From Acidimicrobiales bacterium (GTDB taxonomy: Bacteria > Actinomycetota > Acidimicrobiia > Acidimicrobiales > RAAP-2), in contig JANYFR010000004.1 of assembly GCA_025362585.1 (NCBI GenBank), positions 1-64,000 on the forward strand: a stretch of DNA of 64,000 nucleotides, given 5' to 3'. This document shows, one piece after another, positions 12,133 through 39,291 of this stretch (position 1 is the stretch's first letter; each line of letters opens with the position of its first letter). The position numbers were made by a program, and so were the translations under genes. The notes beneath the pieces were generated by a model. That model was not told where the DNA came from, searched no databases, and saw only the letters and a list, made by a program, of their open reading frames with translations.

Positions 12133-12915
12133 GTGACAGTGATCTCCTTGAATGGGCACCCCACGTGGGCGACACTGCCCAGGGCCAAGGGCAGCGTCAT
12201 CGTACTGTTGCACGGCGGCATGTCGTCGAGTGCATCGATGCGTCGCACGATTGGCCCATTGCTCGCGAAGCGCTTCGCGATGGCGTCTTTCGACCGGCGC
12301 GGCCACGGACGCACCGGGGACAGCGACCGCCCGTTCTCCTACGACGACATGGCTGACGAAACAATTGCGTTCATTCAATTGCTCGGTCGACGGGTCCACC
12401 TGGTCGGTCACAGTGACGGAGGCAACGTGGCGCTGCTGGTGGCGATGCGCCGCCCTGAGCTCCTCAAGCGGATCGTTATTGTCGGCGCGAACTATCATCA
12501 CGAGGGTTTGATGCCCCTTCCGGAGTTTGACACCGACGGTGATGACTTTGCGCGGTGGGCCGAACGATTTGCGACTCGATCACCCGACGGCCTCGCGCAC
12601 GCCCGGATTGTCGCCGCGAAGACCCAGGCGATGTTCGCGACGGAACCGACACTCACCAAGGACGACCTCGCGACTATTCGAGTACCGGTGCTCGTGATGG
12701 CTGGCGATGACGACGTGGCGACACTCGAGCACACCTGTTCGATGTACCAGTCAATTCCCGAGGCGCAGCTGTGCATCGTGCCCGGGACGTCCCATTCGGT
12801 CCTGCGGGAGCGAACCGGGCAAAGTGCACGAATCATCGATCATTTCCTTCGCAGCCGGCTGCCGGTGGTCACCGAGACGCCGATTCGGCGCTCGGGGGCA
12901 ATAATCAAGGCGTGA
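12133..12915 (+). CDS. Alpha/beta hydrolase
   Basis: VIVLLHGGMSSSASMR...FDRRGHGRTGDSDRPFSYDDMADE...HLVGHSDGGNVALLVA. GTG start inferred. Confidence 0.85.
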   Translation: MTVISLNGHPTWATLPRAKGSVIVLLHGGMSSSASMRRTIGPLLAKRFAMASFDRRGHGRTGDSDRPFSYDDMADETIAFIQLLGRRVHLVGHSDGGNVALLVAMRRPELLKRIVIVGANYHHEGLMPLPEFDTDGDDFARWAERFATRSPDGLAHARIVAAKTQAMFATEPTLTKDDLATIRVPVLVMAGDDDVATLEHTCSMYQSIPEAQLCIVPGTSHSVLRERTGQSARIIDHFLRSRLPVVTETPIRRSGAIIKA

Positions 12916-22925: not shown

Positions 22926-23744
22926 TTAGTCGTTAAGAATTGAGGCGACGACGCTGATGTCCGGGAGCCAGAGGTCGGCGCCGAGCGCCTCGGCCACAGC
23001 AGCATCCACGCCCGCGCCACCGAGATAGATGGGCACGGAGATTTCAGAAATGCGCAGCGCCTCGATTAGCTCTGCGGCACTCGATCGGCTGATCGGTGTC
23101 ACAACGCAAATCGCGATCGCGAGGAGCCGATTCACGTTGTGCACGCACTGCACGAAGGCGGCGGTCGGGACGTCGGCTCCAAGTTCGACGACGTCAAAAT
23201 GCTTGGCCCGAAGAATGTCGGCGGCGAACGAAGTCGCCAGTGCGTGCATCTCGCCCGCCGGGGCGCCCACGACCACAGTCCCGGTTCGCGTGCCCCGGCT
23301 TCGAAAGAAGGGACCACTTCGTCCAACGAGCCGCGTCATCACCACCGACGCCCGATGTTCGTCAGCGACCGTGACCTCGCCACGGGACCACCGTTCACCG
23401 ATGATCCTCATCGCCGGAGCGAACAACTCCTGGTACACGTAGGTCGGCGTTGCTCCGCCGCTGAGGGCCTCTTGGGCAATAGCCCAGCTCCCATTCTCGT
23501 CACCCTCGAGGAGCCGACGAACGAGACGGACTACCGGATCCCCCCCGCTGCGCTCACGTGGCGTGGCGGCGATTGCGTGTCGCGCAACGTCGAATCGGCT
23601 GAGCTCGGACTCTTGCACCACCCACTGAGTACCTTCGAGTTGCGCCGGCAGTCGACCGGTGCGAACGTAACGGTAGGCGGTCATGTAGTGGACGCCAAGT
23701 CGCTCGGCAACGTCGGGCAAGGTGAGGCGGTCACCGTCGCTCAG
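22926..23744 (-). CDS. HTH + cobalamin-binding (CarH/LitR-like) regulator
   Basis: HTH DRLTLPDVAERLGVHYMTAYRYVRTGRLPA; W-x9-EH motif WSRGEVTVADEH; cobalamin-binding GEMHALATSFAADILR. Start probably CTG at 23744 (TTG at 23720 alternative). Confidence 0.82.
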   Translation of the reverse strand: MSDGDRLTLPDVAERLGVHYMTAYRYVRTGRLPAQLEGTQWVVQESELSRFDVARHAIAATPRERSGGDPVVRLVRRLLEGDENGSWAIAQEALSGGATPTYVYQELFAPAMRIIGERWSRGEVTVADEHRASVVMTRLVGRSGPFFRSRGTRTGTVVVGAPAGEMHALATSFAADILRAKHFDVVELGADVPTAAFVQCVHNVNRLLAIAICVVTPISRSSAAELIEALRISEISVPIYLGGAGVDAAVAEALGADLWLPDISVVASILND

Positions 23745-24736
23745 GGTGTTCCCCGATTCTGGCCCTGCAGGCCCGATTTTTGCTCACAGAACGACCAGAG
23801 GCGTTCGCGCTGTTGGGGCGTGTCGCTATTGCGTGTGCGGGCGAAACGGTGCCGCGATCGGACGCGTCGGTCGAGCCATAATGTTCCCGGCGTTACGGAG
23901 TCGTCGGACGTCGTGGCCAACCAAGCAACGGTGTCGATGCCCTCGTTCAAGGTACGAAGGAGCGGTCGAACTACTCGGCGAAAGGCCGGCAGGCTTTGAC
24001 GAAGACCGGGCGTGTCCACCCACCCAGGGTGCATCACCGTCATCGTTACGTGACGGGAGGTCAGACGGGGCGCCCAGTGCTCGACCAACGTAACTTGGGC
24101 GCGCTTCACTTTCGCGTAGGCCTTCACACCGTCGTACGCCGAACTCGGGGTGGCCAGCCAGTCGAGGTCGAGGGGCTCAGCATACATTCCGCCCGAAGTC
24201 ACCCAGATCACTCGGGCCCGACCGGCGACGAGTTCGGGCTCGATCAGGTTAGTCAATAGGTACGGCCCAACCAAGTGCACCGCGGTCGTGAGTTCAATCC
24301 CGTCGCGGGTCGTTGCCAGCGAGCGTGAGAGCGCACCAGCGTTATGGACTAGTACATCTATTGCTCCGAATGCGCGCAGTTCCTGCGCACAGTGTCGGAC
24401 GCTCTCGAGGTCGCCCACATCGCCAACCACGATCGAGACATCCGTATTGCCCGTCGAACTCATGATCTCGTCGCGAGTGCGTTGCGCGCGTTCTTGATTG
24501 CGTGCAACGAGAACGACGCGGGCTCCGGCCCGCGCGAACTGCACGGCGATCTCTCGCCCCAGTCCGGACGTCGACCCGGTGACGACCGCGGTGCGGCCCT
24601 TCAAGGTCTGCCACTCGGGCTCGGTCCAGTGGAAAAGCCGTCGACGCACCACGGCTCCAACCCGCGAGAAACTCCCAACGATGCTGGCCTCGAGCGCTGC
24701 GTCGATTGCGACGGCGAGTGGACTAGCTGCCGTCAC
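23741..24736 (-). CDS. SDR-family oxidoreductase (DHRS12-like)
   Basis: LKGRTAVVTGSTSGLGREIAVQFARAGARVVLVARN...VHNAGALS; start GTG 24736 inferred from overlap with the upstream stop. Confidence 0.85.
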   Translation of the reverse strand: MTAASPLAVAIDAALEASIVGSFSRVGAVVRRRLFHWTEPEWQTLKGRTAVVTGSTSGLGREIAVQFARAGARVVLVARNQERAQRTRDEIMSSTGNTDVSIVVGDVGDLESVRHCAQELRAFGAIDVLVHNAGALSRSLATTRDGIELTTAVHLVGPYLLTNLIEPELVAGRARVIWVTSGGMYAEPLDLDWLATPSSAYDGVKAYAKVKRAQVTLVEHWAPRLTSRHVTMTVMHPGWVDTPGLRQSLPAFRRVVRPLLRTLNEGIDTVAWLATTSDDSVTPGTLWLDRRVRSRHRFARTRNSDTPQQRERLWSFCEQKSGLQGQNRGTP

Positions 24737-25169
24737 GCGATGAGCCAAGCATTCTGCGAAGCGAATCGCGGGCGCGATCACCAATCTTGCGAAAGGTCAG
24801 CGCCAACAGCGGGTTGGCGATCGCGGCAACGCCGGTCAGTTGCAGATCGGCGTCGTACGTCATTTCACATCCGGCCGGGCGCGCTTCGAATGAAAGCGTG
24901 TCCACCGAGCGCAACATCGAGGTCGTCGAATTGAACGTCACTCGCCGGCCCGGTTCGAACTCGGTGATGCGGTAGCGCAGGATCTTGTCGCGACCCGCAA
25001 CGGGAACGGTCAGGTCAAACTCCGAGCCGAGGCCGACCTCACCAGTGCCGACGCGACGCGCCCTAGTGACGCCCGGGTCCCACTCAGCGGCGTTCGAGAA
25101 GTCGGCCATGAACCCGAAGGCCTCGTCGAGGTCCCAGACGGAGGTGATGACGGTGGTGTAGCGGGGAAT
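24723..25169 (-). CDS. SRPBCC-family (polyketide cyclase/START-like) protein; probable ATT start
   Basis: PRYTTVITSVWDLDEAFGFMADFSNAAEWDPGVTRARRVGTGEVGLGSEFDL; AGGAGG 5 nt upstream of ATT at 25169-25167. Confidence 0.78.
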   Translation of the reverse strand: MPRYTTVITSVWDLDEAFGFMADFSNAAEWDPGVTRARRVGTGEVGLGSEFDLTVPVAGRDKILRYRITEFEPGRRVTFNSTTSMLRSVDTLSFEARPAGCEMTYDADLQLTGVAAIANPLLALTFRKIGDRARDSLRRMLGSSRDGS

Positions 25170-25198
25170 GGCGCCCTCCTCGTTCGGGAATTTGACAA

Positions 25199-25224
25199 AA
25201 CTGAGTTTAGCACTAAACTCAGTT
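25199..25224. promoter_or_regulatory. Perfect 12-bp inverted repeat (2-bp spacer) in the divergent promoter; candidate operator
   Basis: AACTGAGTTTAG-CA-CTAAACTCAGTT, overlapping the TTGACA (25192-25197)...TAAACT (25214-25219) promoter region. Confidence 0.8.
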
Positions 25225-25226
25225 GC

Positions 25227-26519
25227 GTGCCGCAATCCCGAATCGACGAGCGCATTGCCGTCATTGGCAGCGGGGTATCGGGACTCGTCGCGGCGCATCT
25301 GCTGCATCCGCACGCCGACCTCACGATCTTCGAGGCCGATTGGAAGGTCGGTGGCCACGTCAACACCGTCGACGTACTCGACGGCGATCAGACCCTCGGG
25401 ATCGATACCGGTTTCATTGTCTACAACGATCGAAACTACCCCCGCTTCACGGCGATGCTCGACGCACTGGGCGTCGAAACGCAACCGAGTGATATGAGTT
25501 TCAGTGTCTCGTCACTTCGGTCGGGTCTGGAGTACGCCGGTACGAACTTCAATACCCTCTTCGCGCGACGGACTAATGCGCTGCGCCCCACGTTCTTCAA
25601 GATGCTCGTAGACGTCACGCGCTTCAATCGTGCCGCACGCGAGCTGCTCTCGCGGGACGACCTGTCGATCTCCATCGGACAGTTCCTCGACGACGGCCAC
25701 TATTCTCGATCGTTCGTCGACGACTACCTGATACCGATGGGTGCGTCGATTTGGTCCGCCAATCCTCAGACCTTCACTGAGTTTCCCGCGGCTCCACTGG
25801 CCCGATTTTTTGATCAGCACGGTTTACTCTCGTTGGGCAATCGGCCGTCGTGGCGCACCGTCACCGGCGGTGCGCGTCAATATGTTGACGCGTTGACCGG
25901 GCCACTGGGCGAGCGGGTGCGCACGAACTGCCCGGTTGTCAAGGTCGTGCGCGATGAGAGTGGGGTCAGCGTTCACTCGGCGGTTCGCCCAGAGGGTGAG
26001 CGTTTCGACCGTGTCATCTTCGCCACGCACGCCGACACCGCGCTGACCCTGCTCGAACGTCCGACCGACGATGAGGAGTCCGTTCTGGGCGCCCTGAAAT
26101 TCCAGAGCAACCGCGCGACGCTCCACACGGACTCGAGCCTGCTGCCGCGCCACCGTCGTGCGCGAGCCAGCTGGAACTACCGCCAAACTGGCGATGGACG
26201 CTCGCTGCCGGTGCTCACCTACTACGCCAATCGACTTCAAAATCTCGTCTCGGAGAGCGATTATTGCATCACGCTCAACGCCGACGACGCAATTGATCCC
26301 ACGCGGGTCATCGCGTCGTTCGACTACACCCATCCGGTATTCGATGAAGCGGCCCTGCGCGCACAGCGTCGCCACCAGGAGATTGACGGACGTCATCGGA
26401 CCCACTTCGTCGGGGCGTACTGGGGCTATGGCTTCCACGAAGACGGTGTCCAGAGTGCGCACCGAGTTGCCGCTCGAATTCTCAGTGCGCGCGCGGGTGA
26501 GGTACCCGCGACACCGTGA
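25227..26519 (+). CDS. FAD-dependent oxidoreductase (amine-oxidase-like, NAD(P)-binding)
   Basis: RIAVIGSGVSGLVAAHLLHPHADLTIFEADWKVGGHVNTVDV...GFIVYNDRNYPRF. GTG start. Confidence 0.88.
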   Translation: MPQSRIDERIAVIGSGVSGLVAAHLLHPHADLTIFEADWKVGGHVNTVDVLDGDQTLGIDTGFIVYNDRNYPRFTAMLDALGVETQPSDMSFSVSSLRSGLEYAGTNFNTLFARRTNALRPTFFKMLVDVTRFNRAARELLSRDDLSISIGQFLDDGHYSRSFVDDYLIPMGASIWSANPQTFTEFPAAPLARFFDQHGLLSLGNRPSWRTVTGGARQYVDALTGPLGERVRTNCPVVKVVRDESGVSVHSAVRPEGERFDRVIFATHADTALTLLERPTDDEESVLGALKFQSNRATLHTDSSLLPRHRRARASWNYRQTGDGRSLPVLTYYANRLQNLVSESDYCITLNADDAIDPTRVIASFDYTHPVFDEAALRAQRRHQEIDGRHRTHFVGAYWGYGFHEDGVQSAHRVAARILSARAGEVPATP

Positions 26520-27259
26520 CTAGTTCTGCGATTTACGAAGGCACGGTGGTGCACGAACGTCCTAACGGGCCGCGTCGGCGATTCACCAATCACGTCGCGA
26601 TGCCACTGGTGGATCTCAGTGACGTGGCATCACTGGCGCTGGCGCCGGTATGGCGCGCAGAGCGATGGGCCCCGATGGCGTTCCGTCGTCGCGACTATAT
26701 GGGCGACCGGTCAGTCTCGCTGGACAGAACGGTGCGCGACCTGGTCGAGGAGCGCCTCGGTTGGCGTCCTGATGGATCGATCAAGTTGTTGGCGCACCAC
26801 CGTACGTGGGGATGGTGTTTCAATCCAATTGCTCTTTACTACTGTTACGGCTCTGACAGTGAGACGCTCGCGGTGGTGGTCGCGGACGTCACCAATACTC
26901 CGTGGGGCGAATCGCGCTCGTACGTAATCGACGTACGCGACGGGCTCGACAATCTCACCGATCAGCCCAAAGTCCTACACGTCTCACCGTTCCTACCATT
27001 GGACCTGAAGTACCGGTTCCGACTCACGGACCTTTCGGAGCGATGTGGTTTTTCGGTTACTGTGCTGCGCGGCGAAGAGATGGTCTTCCGCGCGGGACTC
27101 GTTCTCCGGCGTCGAGCGCTGAGCCGGCGCGAGGTCGCCCGAGTACTGTGGCGGCGACCTTTCCAGACCCACCGATTGTCACTCTCTATTTACCTGCACG
27201 CCGCTCGCCTCTGGCTGTGCCGGGTACCGGTAGTTCGACACGCGAGGCCCGTGGCGTGA
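26516..27259 (+). CDS. DUF1365 family protein
   Basis: SAIYEGTVVHERPNGPRRRFTNHVAMPLVDLSDV...LLAHHRTWGWCFNPIALYYCYG...FLPLDLKYRFRL. GTG start overlapping upstream stop. Confidence 0.85.
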   Translation: MTSSAIYEGTVVHERPNGPRRRFTNHVAMPLVDLSDVASLALAPVWRAERWAPMAFRRRDYMGDRSVSLDRTVRDLVEERLGWRPDGSIKLLAHHRTWGWCFNPIALYYCYGSDSETLAVVVADVTNTPWGESRSYVIDVRDGLDNLTDQPKVLHVSPFLPLDLKYRFRLTDLSERCGFSVTVLRGEEMVFRAGLVLRRRALSRREVARVLWRRPFQTHRLSLSIYLHAARLWLCRVPVVRHARPVA

Positions 27260-28512
27260 GCGTCCGTCCCTCACTGCAACTGCCCTCCGCCTTGAAGGGT
27301 TCCGGCGCCGCTCGCCTGTTACTGAAACTGCTCGCCCGATACCTGCGGCACGGAACATTGACCGTGAACGAATCGGGCCGCACCTCGGTGTACGGCACTT
27401 CAGCCGAGGGAGCTTTGACGGCCCGCCTCGACGTGCACGACGCCTCCTTCTGGCGCCGTGTGATCACCCGCGGCGGTATTGGTCTCGGGGAGTCCTACAT
27501 CATGGGGGAGTGGGACAGTGACGATATCGTGGCAGTCCTGCGGCTCCTGACGCTCAATCTCGATCGCATCAACCGCTGGTCGGGTCGGCTGGCGAGAGTG
27601 CGCGCTGTGCTGCGACTCCCTAAGCGACGAGTTCGTACCGCAACTCGCGAGATTGATCGCGAGAACATCACCGCCCACTACGACCTCGGAGACGACTTTT
27701 TCAAACTATTCCTCGATCCGACGTTGGCCTACTCGAGCGGCGTCTTTGTCACTCCGGAAAGCTCGCTCGAAGAGGCCTCGATTGAGAAATTTGACCGAAT
27801 CTGTCGCAAGCTCGGACTTGGAAGTGGCGACCACGTGATCGAGATAGGCACGGGCTGGGGCGGTTTTGCGATCCACGCCGCCTCGCGATACGGCTGTCGC
27901 GTGACCACGACGACAATCTCGCCAAGTCAGTACGCCCACGCCAGAGACGCGGTCCACGAGGCCGGGCTCGACCACCTCGTGACCGTTCTCAACCAGGACT
28001 ATCGCGACCTGCACGACACGTTCAGTCATCTGGTCTCCATCGAGATGATTGAAGCGGTTGACTGGCGCCAGTACGAGACCTACTTCACCACCTGTCAACG
28101 GCTCCTGCGTCCCGACGGAGTCGCGGCGTTTCAGTGCATTGTCATTGACGACCGTGAGTTCGAGCGCTACAAAACTCGCCAAGACTACATCCGACGCTAC
28201 ATTTTTCCGGGCGGGGGCCTACCCTCGATCTTCGCGATGAATCGGACAGTCGCTGGGTTCACGGACTTCGCACTGGTCGATCTTGAAGATCTTGGTGCCC
28301 ACTACGTGCGCACGCTCAACCTCTGGCGCGAACGCCTTGACGCCCGCGCCGACGACGCCTCGGCTATTGGCTTCGACGATCGCTTCCAGCGAATGTGGCG
28401 CTTCTACTTCGCCTACTGTTCGGCCGGCTTTTCGGAGCGTCACGTCTCGGTGGTGCAGATGGTCTTCGCCCGGAAGGGTTGGCGGGGACCGCTTCGACCC
28501 CGCGGTGTGTAG
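27256..28512 (+). CDS. Cyclopropane-fatty-acid-synthase-family methyltransferase
   Basis: ENITAHYDLGDDFFKLFLDPTLAYSSGVF...VIEIGTGWGGFAIHAASRYGCRVTTTTISPSQY...EMIEAVDW. GTGA overlap. Confidence 0.9.
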   Translation: MSVRPSLQLPSALKGSGAARLLLKLLARYLRHGTLTVNESGRTSVYGTSAEGALTARLDVHDASFWRRVITRGGIGLGESYIMGEWDSDDIVAVLRLLTLNLDRINRWSGRLARVRAVLRLPKRRVRTATREIDRENITAHYDLGDDFFKLFLDPTLAYSSGVFVTPESSLEEASIEKFDRICRKLGLGSGDHVIEIGTGWGGFAIHAASRYGCRVTTTTISPSQYAHARDAVHEAGLDHLVTVLNQDYRDLHDTFSHLVSIEMIEAVDWRQYETYFTTCQRLLRPDGVAAFQCIVIDDREFERYKTRQDYIRRYIFPGGGLPSIFAMNRTVAGFTDFALVDLEDLGAHYVRTLNLWRERLDARADDASAIGFDDRFQRMWRFYFAYCSAGFSERHVSVVQMVFARKGWRGPLRPRGV

Positions 28513-29468: not shown

Positions 29469-29984
29469 CTACGTATTTATGACGCTGTTGGTGATTTTGC
29501 GCAGAAGCCGTGCGAGCTGTCGTTGCTCTTCGATTGAGAGTTCGTTGACTGCCCTTCGCTCATGGGCATTGAACTGTGGAAACAGTTCCGCAATGAGCTT
29601 CTCGCCGCGAGCCGTCAGTTCTACCGAGACTCTCCGACGATCGTCTTTGTGGGGAAGCCTTCGTACCATTTTTCGCGATTGCAACGTCTTTATAACCCCA
29701 GTCAAGGTACCCTTGGTGACGCCGGCCTCTTCGGCCACGTGGGCGGTCTCCTGGGGGCCCCATATCCAAAGGACCCAGAGCACCGTAAAGGCCACCCAAC
29801 TGAGCCCATATTCGGCGAGCACGGTTCGCTCCATGTGGTTGCGCACCGCGGTGCCCGCCCGGTAGACATTCGAGATGGCGCTCATCGCCGTGAAATCGAA
29901 GTGCTGACCCCTCAGTCGAGCTCGAATGTCCTTTTCGGCTTGCAGAACAACGGCCGAAGAGGCCGAACCAATACGCCGGCTCAT
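29469..29984 (-). CDS. MarR-family transcriptional regulator
   Basis: YGLSWVAFTVLWVLWIWGPQETAHVAEEAGVTKGTLTGVIKTLQSRKMVRRLPHKDDRRRVSVELTARGEKL. Confidence 0.9.
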   Translation of the reverse strand: MSRRIGSASSAVVLQAEKDIRARLRGQHFDFTAMSAISNVYRAGTAVRNHMERTVLAEYGLSWVAFTVLWVLWIWGPQETAHVAEEAGVTKGTLTGVIKTLQSRKMVRRLPHKDDRRRVSVELTARGEKLIAELFPQFNAHERRAVNELSIEEQRQLARLLRKITNSVINT

Positions 29985-30781
29985 GGGGTCGAGCGCAAGG
30001 TCGTGCCCCCCGCGAAAGTGGTGCCCACGCTTCGGAAGTAGCCCCCGATGATTTCGAGTGGCGTCAGTTGCGCGAGCTCTTCGGTCGGGGACTCGAAAAA
30101 CTCGAGAGTCGCGCTGCCTCCCCATACGGGACCGAGTTCCACGTCGACGCCGGCCATGGTGACTACTTCGTTGAGGGCGTCGTCACCAGTAAGTTCAATT
30201 CGCGGAAACCATCGATGGTGCAGCATCGCGTGACCATTGACGAATCCGCTGGCCTCAACCTCTTTCACGAGCGTGACTGACGCGTTGGCGAGGCGTCGGT
30301 CCGCTGCTGCGAGGGTCATGCCGAAGCGGCCGCCTGGCGCGAGGCGCGGTCCGGCACGCCCGACATTGATCGGTCGAGTTTGGTGGATCGAACCGAATTT
30401 CTTGGGATAGCCCTGAATGTAGCCGCGCACCAGCGCGAAGTCCTTGTCAACCCAAATAAAGACGCAGCGACTGTAGAGAGCGCCCTTGTAGCGACAGCGC
30501 ACGACGACGAAAGCTTCTCTGTACTGGGAACGCACCGGGTCGAGAAGCTCCTCGCCACTGTCGCCACAACTCTGCCAGTCGGCCCAGATTATGGCAACGG
30601 CGCCGGGGTCTTCGTCATGGTTCGCGAGGTCGACGTCGGGCGGAAGGACCGCACGGATGTTCGCCGGGTCGGTTCGATACTCGACAGTCAGTAGGTCGCC
30701 GGAGTAGTGCCACGGTGGCGGCGGGAGTAGTGACGCGGCGCCCGAGATAGTTCGGGGAAACGGGAGACCCTGCAAAGCCAT
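29981..30781 (-). CDS. Acetoacetate-decarboxylase-family protein
   Basis: WHYSGDLLTVEYRTDPANIRAVLPPDV...YREAFVVVRCRYKGALYSRCVFIWVDKDFALVRGYIQGYPKKFGSI. Confidence 0.82.
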   Translation of the reverse strand: MALQGLPFPRTISGAASLLPPPPWHYSGDLLTVEYRTDPANIRAVLPPDVDLANHDEDPGAVAIIWADWQSCGDSGEELLDPVRSQYREAFVVVRCRYKGALYSRCVFIWVDKDFALVRGYIQGYPKKFGSIHQTRPINVGRAGPRLAPGGRFGMTLAAADRRLANASVTLVKEVEASGFVNGHAMLHHRWFPRIELTGDDALNEVVTMAGVDVELGPVWGGSATLEFFESPTEELAQLTPLEIIGGYFRSVGTTFAGGTTLRSTP

Positions 30782-31665
30782 CAGCGCGCTCCCGTCCAGC
30801 CCTTGCTCGGCTGATCGAACCACACGTGTACTTGACCAGTGCCGATTGAGTTCTCGTACTCGGAGTACATCCGACCAGGGGCCGTGCAGGCGGCTCCGCC
30901 GAGGGCGTGAACCATCATCTGGTAGTGGCCGAAGTGACCCTCGGGTCGTACCGCCGCGAACTGGTCCATCTCGTCGACGACGAGCGCGTGATCGCCGCGT
31001 ACCAGGGCGTCGATCACGCGGTGATCCCAGTAGCGCGCTTCACTCGAGTAGATGTTCTCCTCGGGGGCAGCTTCATGACGACGTAAGTCCCGCAGCTTGT
31101 GAAAGGTGTGGCTCACCGCGCCCGACGCTATCAACATCACGCGGTAGTCGCTCTGGGCGATGGCGTCGGCGACGACCTTTCCCACGGTCTCGAAGTCGCG
31201 GCTCTCGGCGGTCTGGCAGACACCGAGAGAGATCCACGCCTCGCTACCTTGCAGAAAGGGCAGAAAATTCAGCGTCGCGTACTCAACCGGAAGATGCTCG
31301 TTGTCAATGGGAGTAATCCAGCAGTCGTCCGTCTGGTCAGCGATCGTGCCGATCAGGGCAGCGAGTTCGGGACAGCCCGGCATGTCGTAGGGGACACTCG
31401 ACATTCCGCGAGGAAGTTCGCCGCTCGTGAAGAAACCGCTCCGACGTTTGGCGGACGTGACGACGAACTCAACGGTGGTGAACCAGTGACTATCAAAGAC
31501 GATCACCACGTCGGGTCGAACTACGTCGAAGACCTCGCGGCGCAGTTGGTGGAGACCGCTGTGCAGAGTGCTCTCATTGCCGTCGTTGAGTTCGCGGCGC
31601 AACTCGTCAGGCAGCACGATGGTCGGTACGTGCGCGAGTAGTCCCGCGCCGACAATCTCACCCAT
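30781..31665 (-). CDS. Class III (LigB-type) extradiol ring-cleavage dioxygenase, HpaD/HpcB-like
   Basis: GEIVGAGLLAHVPTIVLP...VVIVFDSHWFTTVEFVV...MPGCPELAALIG...LIASGAVSHTF. Confidence 0.85.
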   Translation of the reverse strand: MGEIVGAGLLAHVPTIVLPDELRRELNDGNESTLHSGLHQLRREVFDVVRPDVVIVFDSHWFTTVEFVVTSAKRRSGFFTSGELPRGMSSVPYDMPGCPELAALIGTIADQTDDCWITPIDNEHLPVEYATLNFLPFLQGSEAWISLGVCQTAESRDFETVGKVVADAIAQSDYRVMLIASGAVSHTFHKLRDLRRHEAAPEENIYSSEARYWDHRVIDALVRGDHALVVDEMDQFAAVRPEGHFGHYQMMVHALGGAACTAPGRMYSEYENSIGTGQVHVWFDQPSKGWTGAR

Positions 31666-33127
31666 GGGTAGTTCCTTCCTTAATCTGCAAGGTTTTGAGA
31701 TCGGAGTAGAAGTCGAGTGCGTAGTCGCCGCCCTCGCGGCCGACTCCACTGATGCCGGTCCCGCCGAATGGTGCGGTGAGGTCGCGCACGAGAAAGCAGT
31801 TCACCCAAATTGTGCCCGCCCGCAGTCGCTCGCCGAGTCGCTGCGCGCGCGCCTCGCTGCCCGTGTAGATAATCGCTGAGAGCCCGTAGGGCGTGGAGTT
31901 GGCCAGGCGTATGGCGTCGGACTCGTCCTCAAAGGTCTGAATGGTGAGTACTGGGCCAAAGACCTCGCGTTGGACAATCTCTGATTCGTTCGACCGCGGT
32001 TCGATAAGTGTTGGCTGGTACCAGAGGCCGCCCGCGACGCCGACGGTGCCACCAAAGAGAATGGCGTCGCCGTTCGTGCGAGCGCGCTCGACAAAGCCCG
32101 CGACTCGCGCGAGGTGGTCGGGATGAATGAGCGGCGAGATTGTCGTCGTCGGGTCACGGCTGTCGCCCAGGCGGTGACCTTTCGCTGCGGATTCGAAGAG
32201 TCTGACGAACTGGCTGCGCGCGGACGATTCAACGAGGAGCCGAGTCCCCGCGAGACAGACCTGACCGGCGTCGTCGTACATGACGGCGGCCTTCTCCGCC
32301 GCCGCTTCGAGGTTTGCGTCGGCGAAGACGAGGAAGGGTCCCTTGCCACCTAGTTCGGCGGTGAAGGGGATGAGGTGCTTTGCCGCCGCCTCGCCGATGC
32401 TGCGCCCAGTCTCGGGTGATCCAGTAAAGGAGATTCGTCGAACGCGCGGGTCGTTCACGAGCGCCGCGCCCACCTCCTCGCCGTAACCCTGGACCATGTT
32501 GAAGACACCGGGTGGAAACTCGGCTTCGGCGACGAGGTCCATGAGCAGTGAGCAGCTGAGGGGCGACCACTCCGCCGGCTTGAGGACAACGGTGTTGCCC
32601 GCGGCGAGTGCGGGCGCACACTTCCAAGTCGAGAGCATGAAGGGAGCGTTCCAGGGGGTGATCACGACCGTGGGACCAGCGGGCATGCGCAGCACCGTGT
32701 TCTGAGTGCCATTGGAGGACCAACGCCGTGAGGCGTAGTTTCGCGCCAGATCGGCATAGGCACGAAAATTCCGCGCACCTCGGGCGATGACGCGCAGCCG
32801 CAGGCTCTCCTCGAGCATGGCCATATCCAGGCTCTCGAGGTGCGCAATTTGGTCCACGTCGCGGTCAATGAGTTCGGCGAGCCGGTGCAGAAACGCACCA
32901 CGTTGCTCGGTGGAGAGTGAGGACCATGGGAGGAAAGCGCCGAGTGCCGCCGTGACGGCAAGGTCGGCTTCGGGCTCGCCACCTCGGGCGACGTCGGCGA
33001 GCTTCCAGCTCCAATCGAGGGGCGAACGATCCTCGAAGGTGCGACTCGACGCCTGTCGTTCTCCGTTGATGAAATGGTCGGGCGAGACGGAAACGCCGTC
33101 GACGTCGATGCGCGGGGTCGGCCTCAC
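31658..33127 (-). CDS. Aldehyde dehydrogenase (HpaE-like)
   Basis: TPWNAPFMLSTWKCAPALAAGNTVVLKPAEWSPL...FTGSPETGRSIG...AELGGKGPFLVF...QVCLAGTRLLVES. Confidence 0.9.
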   Translation of the reverse strand: MRPTPRIDVDGVSVSPDHFINGERQASSRTFEDRSPLDWSWKLADVARGGEPEADLAVTAALGAFLPWSSLSTEQRGAFLHRLAELIDRDVDQIAHLESLDMAMLEESLRLRVIARGARNFRAYADLARNYASRRWSSNGTQNTVLRMPAGPTVVITPWNAPFMLSTWKCAPALAAGNTVVLKPAEWSPLSCSLLMDLVAEAEFPPGVFNMVQGYGEEVGAALVNDPRVRRISFTGSPETGRSIGEAAAKHLIPFTAELGGKGPFLVFADANLEAAAEKAAVMYDDAGQVCLAGTRLLVESSARSQFVRLFESAAKGHRLGDSRDPTTTISPLIHPDHLARVAGFVERARTNGDAILFGGTVGVAGGLWYQPTLIEPRSNESEIVQREVFGPVLTIQTFEDESDAIRLANSTPYGLSAIIYTGSEARAQRLGERLRAGTIWVNCFLVRDLTAPFGGTGISGVGREGGDYALDFYSDLKTLQIKEGTTHG

Positions 33128-34017
33128 GACTGGAACGTCGGATGAACCTGGGGGTACGGCAACTGATCTTTCGTCGTCGCGACTGGTCGGCGCTGTCCGC
33201 GGAACTCCCAGTCACCACCGAGTGCTGTCGAGAGGACCTCCTCGGTAGCGGTGGGCTGTGCGCCAATTTCTTCGCTCACGGGCATCGGGCCCTCGACGAC
33301 GTGGTTGGTCAGTACGCCGAGACCCTCGATTTCCACCGATACGGTATCGCCGGGTTTCACTGGACGCGAATTCTTCGGTGTGCCCGAGAGGACAATGTCA
33401 CCGGGCACCAGCGTGATGAGTCGCGCGAGGTCAGCGACCAGGTAGTACATGTTCCAAGCCATCTCGTCGGTCGAACCGTCTTGCATGACGACGCCGTTCA
33501 CGGTGGTGGTCATTTGCTTCTTGGTGAAGTCCCAGTCGGTGACGAGGCCCGGACCAATGGGGCAGAGCGTGTCGGCGCCCTTCACTCTGAGCATGGAACC
33601 AGCGTCAGTGTCTCGAAAGTCGTGTAGTCCGTAATCGTTCGCGACGGTGTAGCCCGCGATGTAGTGCGGGGCCTCTGCGAGTGTGACATTGCGGGCTGTT
33701 CGGCCAATGACGATCGCCACCTCTCCCTCGTAGTTGAGGTAGTGACAGTTGCGCGGTCGGACCACCGCCCCACCGTGACCATTGAGAGACGAGATCGGTT
33801 TGTGAAAGTACGTGGGTGCCGGTGGCAACTCGACGCCGTACTCGCGAACTCGCGAGACGTGGTTCAAGTGACAGCAGATGATCTTGGTCGGCGTCACTGG
33901 GGGGAGGTGCGTCGCGTTCGCCGCTTCAACGCGACGCCCGTCGCGCGCGACCAGGCTGTCGCCGTCTAGAACGACGTCCGTGGCGTTGCCGTCCAGCAGA
34001 ATCCTTCTAAACTCCAC
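33124..34017 (-). CDS. Fumarylacetoacetate hydrolase family protein (HpaG-like)
   Basis: KIICCHLNHVSRVREYGVELPPAPTYFHKPISSLNGHGGAVVRPRN...NYEGEVAIVIGRTARNV...AGYTVANDYGLHDFR. Start codon inferred (GTG). Confidence 0.88.
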   Translation of the reverse strand: MEFRRILLDGNATDVVLDGDSLVARDGRRVEAANATHLPPVTPTKIICCHLNHVSRVREYGVELPPAPTYFHKPISSLNGHGGAVVRPRNCHYLNYEGEVAIVIGRTARNVTLAEAPHYIAGYTVANDYGLHDFRDTDAGSMLRVKGADTLCPIGPGLVTDWDFTKKQMTTTVNGVVMQDGSTDEMAWNMYYLVADLARLITLVPGDIVLSGTPKNSRPVKPGDTVSVEIEGLGVLTNHVVEGPMPVSEEIGAQPTATEEVLSTALGGDWEFRGQRRPVATTKDQLPYPQVHPTFQS

Positions 34018-34028
34018 GTCGTCCCCAA

Positions 34029-34048
34029 ATCGTTTGCATCTAAATGAT
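34029..34048. promoter_or_regulatory. Candidate operator, imperfect palindrome ATCGTTT-gcatct-AAATGAT
   Basis: In the FAH/GS-like divergent intergenic region; matches the 36850-36867 palindrome at 13 of 18 positions. Confidence 0.6.
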
Positions 34049-34127
34049 GTTCTTAGGATAGTAAGTTGCTTCCTACGTTTCATCACGACAAAGTGTTACT
34101 TTTCCGGTGGGGCCGTAAGGGGGAATC

Positions 34128-35417
34128 GTGTCGAGTGAGTACAACCGGCTGAGGGTTCTATGGCCCGACCACCTGGGACTGGCGCGCGGTAAGTACGTAC
34201 CGGCGGAACTGGCGAGTCACGGCGTGCGACACTGTACTGGTCTGTGGGCGCTCGGCTACGACCGGGTCATGACTCCAGAGACACCAGGTTCGAACTGGCA
34301 CGAAGGACTGCCCGACCTCGACGCCACCTACCCACTCGATGAGGTCCGTCCTAGCTGGGAGCCCGGCACGAGGGTCGTAGTCGCTGACCTGATGCGTCTC
34401 GGCGCACCGGTCGAGGTTTCACCACGGCACGCGCTGCGTCGGGCCATCGCTGATTGGGGCGCGCTCGGCTACACGCCGTACGTGGGGATGGAGTTCGAGG
34501 CCTACGTCTTTGAACCAGACGGTGAGGGTGGCTGGCGCCCCATCGACACGCCCGGTGCCTTCGTTTACGGCACCGGACCATCCGTCGACCCGCACGGCTT
34601 GCTCGACGCAATCTGGGATGCCTGTTTGGTCGCCGAGATTCCGCTCGAGTCGGTGAACTCCGAATACGACACGCCCCAGTTCGAGTTCACGCTTCGCTAC
34701 ACCGACGCACTCAGAGCTGCGGACGAGGGATTCCTTTTCAAGGTTCTCGCGCGCGAAGTTGCCCACCGCCTCGGACTCCTCGTCACTTTCATGGGGAAGC
34801 CGATATCGGATCGTGGGGGGTCCGGACTGCACTTCAACATCTCGTGGCGCAACGGCGACGGTGACAACGTGGTCCACGATCCCACCGAGCACGATGGCGT
34901 CTCGGTGATGGCCAAACACGCCATTGCGGGCATGCTCGCGCACCACCAGTCACTTGCCGGACTGTGCGCCCCCAACGTCAACGCCTACAAGCGGCTTCGT
35001 CCGGCGTCGCTGTCGGGTTACTGGGCCAACTGGGGATACGACCACCGGGGAGCGACGGTGCGAATCCCACCCGAACGGGGCGCCGGTTCACGGCTCGAAC
35101 ATCGCCTGAGTGATGGCGCGGCTGTCGTCCACACGTCGATGGCCGCGGTTTTGCAGGCCGCTCGACTGGGCGTGGTCAATCAGCTACCACTCGGGCCGGT
35201 GGAGACGGGCAACGGTCTCGACACCATTGACGCCACGGTTGGTGTGCCGTCGTCCCTCGAAGCCGCTCTCGATGCCCTCGAGGCGGACACGGAGCTCGTC
35301 AGCGCCGTCGGTCCTCAGATTGTGGCCCAACATATAGCGGTCAAACGCGCCGAATGGGACCGATTCACGGGTGCCACGACCGACTGGGAGATGCGCGAGT
35401 ACCTGCCCTTCCTTTGA
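34128..35417 (+). CDS. Glutamine-synthetase-family protein (gamma-glutamyl-amine/anilide synthetase-like)
   Basis: VGMEFEAYVFEPDG...ESVNSEYDTPQFEFTLRY...DRGGSGLHFNISW...NAYKRLRPASLSGYWANWGYDHRGATVRIP. GTG start. Confidence 0.85.
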   Translation: MSSEYNRLRVLWPDHLGLARGKYVPAELASHGVRHCTGLWALGYDRVMTPETPGSNWHEGLPDLDATYPLDEVRPSWEPGTRVVVADLMRLGAPVEVSPRHALRRAIADWGALGYTPYVGMEFEAYVFEPDGEGGWRPIDTPGAFVYGTGPSVDPHGLLDAIWDACLVAEIPLESVNSEYDTPQFEFTLRYTDALRAADEGFLFKVLAREVAHRLGLLVTFMGKPISDRGGSGLHFNISWRNGDGDNVVHDPTEHDGVSVMAKHAIAGMLAHHQSLAGLCAPNVNAYKRLRPASLSGYWANWGYDHRGATVRIPPERGAGSRLEHRLSDGAAVVHTSMAAVLQAARLGVVNQLPLGPVETGNGLDTIDATVGVPSSLEAALDALEADTELVSAVGPQIVAQHIAVKRAEWDRFTGATTDWEMREYLPFL

Positions 35418-35570
35418 CGCGGATCCAGGTCGCCACGCTGGTCGCGTCGACCACGCCATCGAACCGGCGGTACTCTGAACCGGCGACGTCAGGGGTTCGA
35501 ACACGGATTCAGATGATGGTGAACCTCCCTCGATTGGACGTCTTTAATCGTCTGCCACGGAGGCCCTCAA

Positions 35571-36821
35571 CTATCGCCAGGTGACGTGCACCGGCAGTCG
35601 TTTCGTTCCGCTAATAAAGTTCGACCGGAAGCGCTCGGCGGGACCCGCCGATTCAATGCTCGACCAGGCCTTCGCCATCTCCTCGAACATGACTCGTAGT
35701 TCGAGCCGGGCGAGGTGGGCGCCGAGGCAGAGGTGCGCACTGTGCAGACCGAAGGCCACGTGGTCGTTCGGCGTCCGCTCCGCGAGGAACTCGTTCGGAC
35801 GATCGAACTGCTCCTCGTCGAAGTTCGCTGAGACGTACCAGAGGACTACTTTGTCGCCTTTCCTCAGGGTTTGGCCGCGCAGTTCGGTCTCCTCGACGAC
35901 CGTGCGACGAAAGTGCATCGTGGTCGTCGACCATCGCAACACCTCGTCGACCAGCGTTTTGCGCTGCGCGTCGTCCATCGTCGCTAGTGCCGCGAATATC
36001 TCGGGACGCTCGATGAAGATTTGTGCGCCGGCGGTCGTCGTGTAGCGGGTCGTGTCGTTACCGGCGGCCACCATGAGTGTGAAAAAGTTCTTCAGGGTCA
36101 TGTCGTCGAGGGAGTCGCCCTCTCGGTTGGGTTCAATCAGCGCCGTCAGGACGTCGCTGGTTGGCACCATGCGCCTCTCTTCGAGGGCGATCTGGGCGTA
36201 CTCGAAGAGTTCGAGAGCGACCGGACTGCGAAACGGCAGCAGGCGGTAGTCGCTCGTGTCAGTCTGGTCAACGACGTAGTCCGTGAAGTCGGGATCGGTG
36301 TTGCCGATTAGGGCGTCACCCCGGCTCACGAGCCAGTCGAGGTCGTTGTCGGGAAGTCCGAGGAGCCGACCGAGCATCTTCATTGGCAGTTCTCGAGCAA
36401 CGTGTTGCACGAAGTCGAACTCCGTACGTGCGCCCAGGTTGGCGATGACTTCCCGCGCGAGATTTCGCACGACCTCCTCGTAGTCCGCCACGACCCGAGG
36501 GGTGAACGGGCGCGACACTAGGCGACGGAGGCGGGTGTGTTCGGGGGAGTCCATCTCCATCATCGTGCGACGGGCCTCGGTCTCCTCCGCGTCCATGTCC
36601 TCCATACGGATGCCGAATCGGCTGGAGAAGAGTTCGGCGTGACGACTGGCGAAGAGGACGTCTTCGTACTTGGTGAGGCTCCAAAAGCCTCGCCCGCCGT
36701 CGGCCTCCTCGGTCCAGGCGACCGGGCTCTCGGCGCGCATCCGGGCGAAGACTTCGTGCGGAACCCGTTCCACGTAGGTGTCGTGGGACGTGATGTCGAT
36801 GAGGTGCGAATCATTCGCCAT
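35571..36821 (-). CDS. Cytochrome P450 (CYP125/124-like architecture)
   Basis: MDSPEHTRLRRLVSRPFTPR; I-helix AAGNDTTRYT; ExxR DEVLRWSTT; heme loop VAFGLHSAHLCLGAHLARLEL. Confidence 0.9.
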   Translation of the reverse strand: MANDSHLIDITSHDTYVERVPHEVFARMRAESPVAWTEEADGGRGFWSLTKYEDVLFASRHAELFSSRFGIRMEDMDAEETEARRTMMEMDSPEHTRLRRLVSRPFTPRVVADYEEVVRNLAREVIANLGARTEFDFVQHVARELPMKMLGRLLGLPDNDLDWLVSRGDALIGNTDPDFTDYVVDQTDTSDYRLLPFRSPVALELFEYAQIALEERRMVPTSDVLTALIEPNREGDSLDDMTLKNFFTLMVAAGNDTTRYTTTAGAQIFIERPEIFAALATMDDAQRKTLVDEVLRWSTTTMHFRRTVVEETELRGQTLRKGDKVVLWYVSANFDEEQFDRPNEFLAERTPNDHVAFGLHSAHLCLGAHLARLELRVMFEEMAKAWSSIESAGPAERFRSNFISGTKRLPVHVTWR

Positions 36822-36849
36822 GGATCCCCCCTGTCGTTGGAGAGCGTAC

Positions 36850-36867
36850 TCGTTTGGCGCCAAACGA
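36850..36867. promoter_or_regulatory. Candidate operator, perfect 18-bp palindrome TCGTTTGGCGCCAAACGA
   Basis: Between divergent P450 and PuuD-like genes; 9-bp arms, no spacer. Confidence 0.75.
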
Positions 36868-36909
36868 ATTGATCTGGCTTTCACTCGGTGGGCTTCCTAC
36901 TATGGAGGG

Positions 36910-37644
36910 ATGACGAAGCCACTTATTGGCATGACCGGGCGCCGCTGGCCGGTGGCGTGGCTGGACCGCAACGTCCCCAAGGCCATGCATGAGTTGCAGT
37001 TTGACCTGCATTTCTCGGACTATCCGGCCTCCGTCGCGGCCGCGGGCGGCATCCCCGTCGAACTCACTCGCGACGCCGACGTCGAAGAATTGATGGCCCG
37101 CCTGGATGGGCTGATTCTGAGCGGGGGAGCGGACGTCGAACCGGCCCGCTACGGTCACGATCCCGATGACGATCTCGGCTCCACTGAACCCGATCGAGAC
37201 GAGTGGGAGTTGGCGCTGTTGCGCGAGGCCCGCCGGATCGAAATGCCGGTCCTCGCCATCTGTCGCGGCGCGCAACTGACCAACGTCTTCTATGGCGGAA
37301 CGCTCAATCAGCACGTGGAGCTCGAAGAAGGTTCGGGCCACCCCCAGTGGGACATTGACGGGCGCGAGACGAGTCACGAGGTCCATATCGTGCCCGGTTC
37401 GCTCCTGTCGTCGCTCTATCCACAGAAGGTGGGCGTGAACTCTCTGCATCACCAGACCCTGGCGGAGCTCGGCAAGGACTTGGTAGTGTCCGCCACGGCT
37501 CCGGACGGGGTCGTCGAAGCATTGGAACTACCGGGCCACGACCTGCTCGGCGTGCAGTGGCATCCCGAGTTGTTGGAGAAGCCCGACCCCACCTTCCGCT
37601 GGCTCGTTGAACGCAGCTCTGCCTTTCTCGAGCGCAGGCTCTAA
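36910..37644 (+). CDS. Gamma-glutamyl-gamma-aminobutyrate hydrolase-like (PuuD-like) class I glutamine amidotransferase
   Basis: PLIGMTGRRW...LDGLILSGGADVEPARYG...MPVLAICRGAQLTNVFYGGTLNQH...VNSLHHQTL...VQWHPE. Confidence 0.88.
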   Translation: MTKPLIGMTGRRWPVAWLDRNVPKAMHELQFDLHFSDYPASVAAAGGIPVELTRDADVEELMARLDGLILSGGADVEPARYGHDPDDDLGSTEPDRDEWELALLREARRIEMPVLAICRGAQLTNVFYGGTLNQHVELEEGSGHPQWDIDGRETSHEVHIVPGSLLSSLYPQKVGVNSLHHQTLAELGKDLVVSATAPDGVVEALELPGHDLLGVQWHPELLEKPDPTFRWLVERSSAFLERRL

Positions 37645-37742
37645 TGCGCTCGATGCGGCGATCGAGGCCACCGTCGAGCTGGGCGACGAGAGGTTGGTCG
37701 ACGTTCCCGCTGGCGGTGCTCGGCACGAGGAGCAGCTGGTCC

Positions 37743-37771
37743 TTGACAAAAGTCGTTTGAGTCCGTACATT
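37743..37771 (+). promoter_or_regulatory. Predicted promoter of the permease gene, TTGACA-N17-TACATT, with TCGTTTG in the spacer
   Basis: ttgaca aaagtcgtttgagtccg tacatt, upstream of ATG 37819. Confidence 0.6.
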
Positions 37772-37818: not shown

Positions 37819-39291
37819 ATGGCTACTGGTGACCAACTGCAGAGGCTGGGTGGCCGCAAGAAACTGACGCTGAAGGACGCGGTGGCCCAGTCAGTTGGAC
37901 TCATGGGGCCGGTCTTCTCGATCGCCTTCCTGGTGCCGCTCCTCGTGGGCCTCAATGCGTCGGGCCGCGGCGCCGGCAACGCGGCAGCCCTCTCAGTCCT
38001 GATCGCGGCCGTCGGGGTCGTCGGACTCGGTTGGATCGTCGCGGAGTACACCCGTAAGATCCAGGCTGCGGGCTCGCTTTACGACTACGTCACCGACGGT
38101 CTCGGTGGACGGGTCGGTTCGGCCGCGGGCTGGCTCTACTACACCGGAATCATTGCGCTCGGTTCGGCGATCCTGCCAATGATCGGCGGCACCATTCACG
38201 ACACGATTCTGACCGAGTTCAGCGTCGAGCCGTTTCCCCAGTTGGTGTGGGATATCCTCTTGCTCCTCCTGGTGGCGTTGGTCATGTACCTGGGCGTGGC
38301 CCTGTCGACCAGGTTGCAGTTAATCCTCGCGCTTATTTCTCTCAGCGTGGTCGCAGTCTTCTCGATCTTCGTCATCGTCCAGAGCAGTGGCGTACACCAC
38401 GTCGCTGCCGGTTTCTCGCCCAACAGCTCGCCGACGCACTGGAGTGGCGTGCTCTTCGGCGTGCTCTACGGGGTGCTCCTCTTCACCGGCTTCGAGACCT
38501 CGGCCAACCTCGGTGAAGAGACCGAACACCCTCGGCGTGACATTCCCCGAGCCGTCCTCTTCTCGGTGCTGGCAATTGGCGGCTTCTACATCGTTGCGAC
38601 GTTCGCCCAGATTTCGGGCTTCCATTTCAACCTCACGACCCTCTCGAAGAACGCCGGTGCGCCACTGTTCACGCTCGCGGGACCGAAGGCCGCCGGCGGT
38701 TACGCCACGGTGGCGATGCGCCGCATCGTCGAACTCGTCGTCATCTTTGACATGATTGCCGTGCTCGTGGGCTGCGCCGTGTCCGCGTCGCGCGGTGTCT
38801 TCGCCATGGCGCGCGACAGTCGACTGCCGCGTTCCTTTGGCAAAATATCCGCCAAAGGAACACCGACGGGAGCGAGCAACGTCGTCATGGTGGTGTACGC
38901 CGTCGTTATTGTGCTCACCGTGACGACGTCGATTTTCGCTATCAAAGGACTTCCTCACTACGTTGCGATCTTTAGCTGGTTCTCGACGTACGGCGCCTTC
39001 GCCATCGCGGTGATCTACTTGCTGATTTCGGTCGGGGCACTCGTTGGACTGAAGGATCGCGGAAAGACGGTACCGCTCTACCTGGCGAGCTCGGTCGGCT
39101 TCCTCGTCACCGCGGGGGCGATCTTTGGATCGATCTACAAGGTCACGGCGCCGACGATCTGGGCGCCGTACGCGGCGGGCGCAATCTTGTTCGTTGGCTT
39201 GATTGCGGCATTCTCAATGAAGAACACCTCGCGCGCCAGTTCCAACTTCTCGTTGCTCATCGAGTCCGAGCAGGGTCCGCTCAAGCTGTAG
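37819..39291 (+). CDS. APC-family amino-acid/amine permease
   Basis: MATGDQLQRLGGRKKLTLKDAVAQSVGLMGPVFSIAFLVPLL...GFETSANLGEETEHPRRDIPRAVLFSVL; many TM segments. Confidence 0.88.
   Translation: MATGDQLQRLGGRKKLTLKDAVAQSVGLMGPVFSIAFLVPLLVGLNASGRGAGNAAALSVLIAAVGVVGLGWIVAEYTRKIQAAGSLYDYVTDGLGGRVGSAAGWLYYTGIIALGSAILPMIGGTIHDTILTEFSVEPFPQLVWDILLLLLVALVMYLGVALSTRLQLILALISLSVVAVFSIFVIVQSSGVHHVAAGFSPNSSPTHWSGVLFGVLYGVLLFTGFETSANLGEETEHPRRDIPRAVLFSVLAIGGFYIVATFAQISGFHFNLTTLSKNAGAPLFTLAGPKAAGGYATVAMRRIVELVVIFDMIAVLVGCAVSASRGVFAMARDSRLPRSFGKISAKGTPTGASNVVMVVYAVVIVLTVTTSIFAIKGLPHYVAIFSWFSTYGAFAIAVIYLLISVGALVGLKDRGKTVPLYLASSVGFLVTAGAIFGSIYKVTAPTIWAPYAAGAILFVGLIAAFSMKNTSRASSNFSLLIESEQGPLKL
38831..38861. 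repeat. Perfect 11-bp inverted repeat (9-nt loop) inside the permease CDS
   Basis: GTTCCTTTGGC-aaaatatcc-GCCAAAGGAAC. Confidence 0.7.

Follow-up and report, generated by a model that had tools for sequence, protein, structure and literature searches.

A conserved palindromic site at three promoters as the very likely operator of a MarR-family autorepressor in an Acidimicrobiales catabolic locus

The DNA analysed here is a stretch of 64,000 nucleotides from an Acidimicrobiales bacterium (assembly GCA_025362585.1, contig JANYFR010000004.1, positions 1 to 64,000; hereafter the window). It carries a locus whose promoters share an 18-bp palindromic site and which includes the gene of a MarR-family regulator. 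The minus strand holds a run of five genes in the order FAH-ALDH-LigB-ADC-MarR. The run starts with an HpaG-like enzyme of the FAH family (33124..34017) and continues with an HpaE-like aldehyde dehydrogenase (ALDH, 31658..33127, assigned by profile matches), an HpaD-like extradiol ring-cleavage dioxygenase of the LigB type (30781..31665, assigned by profile and similarity matches), an enzyme of the acetoacetate decarboxylase (ADC) superfamily that is closest to MppR (29981..30781) and, as its last member, the MarR-family regulator of 171 amino acids (29469..29984). The plus-strand gene divergent from FAH codes for a glutamine-synthetase-like (GS) gamma-glutamyl-amine ligase (34128..35417), whose best relative in the PDB is a glutamate-methylamine ligase. 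It is followed by a cytochrome P450 gene on the minus strand (35571..36821, CYP125/124-like by similarity) and by two genes on the plus strand. These code for a PuuD-like class I amidotransferase/gamma-glutamyl hydrolase with a Peptidase_C26 match (36910..37644) and for an APC-family amino acid/amine permease identified by profile matches (37819..39291). Note that the start of FAH is most likely the GTG codon at 34017 and not the start of the longer open reading frame (ORF) called mechanically.

Three sites lie in the promoter regions of this locus, and their sequences and coordinates are those given by an earlier reading of the window made from the sequence alone (the sequence-only reading). 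Operator 1 (TCGTTTGCATCTAAATGA, 34030..34047) is found in the divergent intergenic region between FAH and GS, with 12 bp separating it from the start codon of FAH and some 80 bp from GS; it falls upstream of the FAH coding region because of the start assigned above. Operator 2 (TCGTTTGGCGCCAAACGA, 36850..36867) is palindromic at all of its 18 positions and stands between P450 (minus strand, start at 36821) and the PuuD-like gene (plus strand, start at 36910). These two operators, to which no strand is assigned, are identical at 13 of their 18 positions. Operator 3 (TCGTTTGAGTCCGTACAT, 37753..37770, plus strand) is held within the promoter of the APC permease, TTGACA-N17-TACATT (37743..37771, plus strand), the sole sigma-70-like promoter found in the region. 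Its left arm TCGTTTG (37753-37759) stands intact in the -35/-10 spacer and its right arm is degenerate over the -10 box. The sequence-only reading recognized only a half-site at this promoter because the right arm is merged with the -10 box.

The words TCGTTTG and CAAACGA occur five times in the window, counting both strands, and four of these occurrences are within the three promoters. Pattern searches, as distinct from a matrix scan, of the 2.09-Mb genome yielded two exact matches to TCGTTTGNNNNNAAAYGA only, both of them at this locus (operators 1 and 2). The other near-matches in this genome (C7, C48, C53 and C58) adjoin genes of unrelated function and were counted as background. The window has one other perfect 18-bp palindrome (TCGCGAAGCGCTTCGCGA, 12263-12280), whose sequence is unrelated to the operators. 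Elsewhere in the genome a tandem pair of related palindromes (contig C43; L025:1179-1219) is found upstream of a secreted-protein-like gene without a Pfam match, and similar palindromes precede secreted-protein-like genes in three relatives (L213:2040-2057, L214:2237-2254, L215:2178-2195).

The sites are extensively conserved in related bacteria. A scan with the GS-like protein retrieved 80 loci, 44 of which form together with the window a set of 45 Acidimicrobiaceae loci in which the gene order is the same or partly so; the locus counts ignore phylogenetic relatedness. Of the 45 orthologous regions between FAH and GS, 43 carry the motif with no more than one mismatch. Its place hardly varies: it lies 12-22 bp from where the FAH match ends, L086 with its partial FAH match being the exception. 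The P450 promoter motif is found in 33 of 37 orthologs (at most two mismatches) and the core of the APC promoter, T.GTTYGNNNCCNTAC, in 24 of 25. Orthologs of the APC promoter keep the left arm, while their right arm reads CGTACGG or CGTACAT and doubles as the -10 box. The half-site first recognized there is thus real. The -35 sequence TTGAC and the -10 sequence TACNNT recur in nearly all of them. The operator between FAH and GS is a conserved island, much of the adjoining intergenic DNA having diverged. The remaining 773 kb of the same loci contain four matches at no more than one mismatch (one exact and three with one mismatch), the background rate at this threshold being 5e-6 per bp. Of the checks that the sequence-only reading had proposed, the two computational ones, clustering of matches at the locus and conservation in orthologous promoters, both come out in its favour, in the genome of origin and in its relatives for the former. 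Its proposal of a single regulon is likewise supported, as all three sites hold fixed positions across orthologs.

The protein encoded by the last gene of the FAH run carries a MarR helix-turn-helix domain (PF01047, 43.2 bits for a cut-off of 24.6). Its AlphaFold2 model (predicted local distance difference test score, pLDDT, of 89.6) has the MarR fold, a winged helix-turn-helix and a helical region for dimerisation, with an extra amino-terminal helix (residues 10-23). The Foldseek matches listed are MarR-type regulators, with the MftR-DNA, HosA and HpaR-DNA complexes among the close ones, and several of the structurally matched MarR proteins were solved with aromatic ligands.

A link between the site and the MarR gene emerges from loci where this gene is relocated. 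In L074 a solitary MarR gene is preceded, at a distance of 47 bp, by a site of its own, and in L119 a site precedes MarR by 71 bp. In L117 the site is flanked by MarR and GS, and in L192/G077, where a GS ortholog was sought and none was found, by MarR-ADC and a divergent PuuD-like gene. The association extends to a distant set of 33 loci from Nitriliruptoraceae, Alpha- and Gammaproteobacteria, other Acidimicrobiia, Deinococcales, Chloroflexi and others. A permutation-controlled search shows that the operator form TCGTTNGG-NN-CCNAACGA recurs in Nitriliruptoria, Alpha- and Gammaproteobacteria and other Acidimicrobiia, the site in Deinococcales being weaker. The pattern TCGTTNG-N4-CNAACGA has 15 matches with one mismatch or none in the 17.3 kb of DNA upstream of genes in these 33 loci, compared with 3 for the best of 59 permuted palindromes. 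A site with up to two mismatches accompanies 13 of the 14 distant loci that bear MarR and only 3 of the 19 without it. The DNA-reading helix of MarR (TKGTLTG) is largely conserved across phyla. Among genomes of the genus, this MarR is present in 49 of 53 that have the GS-like gene versus 4 of 46 that lack it, according to a hand tally uncorrected for relatedness. The MarR gene seems to be disrupted in G086, G093 and G089, by split frames or by a TAG within it, which possibly reflects lost control or an assembly error.

We hold it very likely that the MarR protein of the locus (29469-29984) recognizes TCGTTTGNNNNCAAACGA and its variants as its operator. It would be a distantly HpaR-like autorepressor that acts at the FAH, P450 and APC promoters until its ligand binds. 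This protein, already named as candidate by the sequence-only reading, very probably reads the sites: its membership in the operon, the sites near the relocated MarR genes (L074, L192, L117, L119) and the co-occurrence across phyla strongly indicate the assignment, which we infer from these three lines together. The MarR dimer would contact both 7-bp arms across their 4-bp spacing. At FAH and P450 the operator appears to lie just downstream of a putative -10 box, over the start site (the -10 boxes of these two promoters are read from conserved sequence), and at APC it would fill the -35/-10 spacer. Repression is the expected sign of control since all three positions suit occlusion of RNA polymerase. 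The FAH-ALDH-LigB-ADC-MarR run is presumably co-transcribed, and because marR is its last gene MarR would also limit its own synthesis. MarR would let go of the operators in response to an inducer, probably an aromatic amine or acid that the pathway produces or consumes; uptake through APC, gamma-glutamylation by GS, hydroxylation by P450 and ring cleavage by LigB would then be switched on together. It is uncertain whether the GS and PuuD promoters are also controlled, because the operators lie upstream of the likely -35 there.

Several observations weigh against the assignment to MarR and would suit sites that are the operator of another regulator encoded elsewhere, MarR being only a linked bystander. 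The loss of site and MarR, expected to be clean, is only partially joint among the three genomes that have the locus and lack MarR (their locus and genome handles are paired by matching sites and MarR absence). Both sites are lost in G146 (L090), but G142 (L092), where the FAH/GS site is decayed, keeps a perfect palindrome at the P450 promoter (TCGTTCGCCGGCGAACGA, L092:12553-12570), and G122 (L091), a genome 96% complete, keeps both sites. In addition, TCGTTTGGGTCCAAACGA is present upstream of cydA (cytochrome bd) in G098 and G091, and the near-match TCGTTTGGGTCAAAACGA in G078 (palindromes of the three relatives at L216:2301-2318, L217:1481-1498 and L218:2119-2136). Because G091 has no MarR, a second regulator with a near-identical sequence preference probably exists in this group. 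That such a regulator, and not MarR, is the one served by the sites of the locus is nonetheless unlikely: the sites accompany MarR where it is relocated and in all but one of the distant loci that bear it, the MarR-less L090 has lost both of them, and no transcription factor other than MarR was identified in the locus and the scanned flanking ORFs.

The overlap of the APC right arm with the -10 box could also be taken to mean that the motif is a core-promoter element or a shared sigma-factor signature. We regard this as very improbable since the placement of the motif relative to -35 and -10 varies (within the spacer for APC, past the -10 for FAH and P450) and since it is palindromic, is hardly found elsewhere in these loci, and tracks MarR rather than promoters generally. 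A chance or local composition effect has a negligible probability. Matches with two mismatches or fewer number four in the window where shuffles of the window alone yield 2.2, a modest support that leaves indecisive the earlier statement that three copies are unlikely to arise by chance. What sustains this statement is that exact matches in the genome are confined to this locus, together with ortholog conservation; the latter refutes chance, and the permuted-palindrome controls also speak against it.

Among the closest known counterparts of the proposed MarR autorepressor is HpaR of E. coli W, Yersinia and Acinetobacter, also a MarR-family repressor of a meta-cleavage (homoprotocatechuate) operon of the HpaG/E/D type. 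The HpaR operators have TTAA-N4-TTAA arms spaced by 4 bp, and one of them covers the -10 (PMC7180172). The arm spacing is the same in both systems, the HpaR-DNA complex 7el3 is among the structural matches, and the occlusion of RNA polymerase proposed here works as in HpaR. The sites differ from HpaR operators in their sequence, TCGTTTG-N4-CAAACGA, and the locus adds GS-like, P450 and ADC enzymes. The solved HpaR (7el2) has 141 residues, and its alignment with the 171-residue MarR of the locus begins only at residue 42 of the latter. This MarR scores 51.7 bits, below the cut-off of 121.2, with the HpaR equivalog TIGR02337, the NCBIfam model matched by all 21 regulators of this MarR family. A second likeness is to MftR, HucR and PecS, regulators of the UrtR type. 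Their structures are among the longest matches: the MftR-DNA complex 8ylg ranks first (template modelling score 0.80 over the query, 164 aligned columns), the others being PecS 8yli and HucR 8ylm, and the extra amino-terminal helix (10-23 in the predicted model) is a feature of this type. The identity is however only about 20-25%, and the pathway and likely ligand differ. The UrtR operator consensus is a different 18-bp sequence. We consider the regulon to be solid and new, and its type, a MarR autorepressor of a catabolic operon, to be familiar.

The enzymes of the locus suggest catabolism of an aromatic amine through a putative gamma-glutamyl-amine/aromatic meta-cleavage route. They are related to those of two known pathways and stay below the cut-offs of their equivalog models, with HpaD at 112 of 316 bits, HpaE at 484 of 638 and HpaG-C at 205 of 276 for the hpa homoprotocatechuate pathway, and PuuA (NF045547) at 195 of 650 and PuuD (NF008471) at 102 of 266 for the Puu (gamma-glutamyl-putrescine) pathway. 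The locus shares with the latter a GS-like ligase, a Peptidase_C26 hydrolase and an APC permease, but its regulator is a MarR and it has extradiol ring-cleavage enzymes and a P450. Other gamma-glutamyl-amine routes are those of isopropylamine (IpuC) and of aniline (AtdA1/AtdA2). Many distant loci code for a pyridoxal phosphate (PLP) decarboxylase related to aromatic-amino-acid decarboxylases, often beside GS (L124:8542-9951, L139:5389-6837 and others), which probably provides the missing first step of the pathway. No such gene was found adjoining the locus of the window, and the PLP decarboxylase genes of the same genome (C46, C58, C53), examined as a fourth target, have no operator upstream within two mismatches. 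Literature searches retrieved no description of this gene set nor of a gamma-glutamyl aromatic-amine pathway with a P450. More tentatively, and with somewhat more doubt than confidence, we propose that the operator and MarR mark an undescribed catabolic regulon, present across phyla, for an aromatic amine or amino acid. The pathway would proceed by decarboxylation, gamma-glutamylation of the amine by GS, hydroxylation by P450, ring cleavage by LigB and processing by ALDH, FAH and ADC, with release of glutamate by the PuuD-like enzyme.

The locus is neighboured in the window by genes of short-chain dehydrogenase, polyketide-cyclase-like, flavin amine-oxidase-family and cyclopropane-fatty-acid-synthase-like proteins (23741-28512).

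What began as a motif noticed by eye is thereby a regulon open to testing, for which a candidate regulator can be named, in a soil and peat lineage that is largely uncultured. The recurrence of operator, regulator and the same set of enzymes in several phyla makes the motif a means of tracing the extent of what seems to be an uncharacterised catabolic pathway and of locating the genes still missing from it, and the MarR/operator pair is a candidate biosensor for aromatic amines. The pathway that would be shared across phyla is a more interesting lead than the regulon itself.

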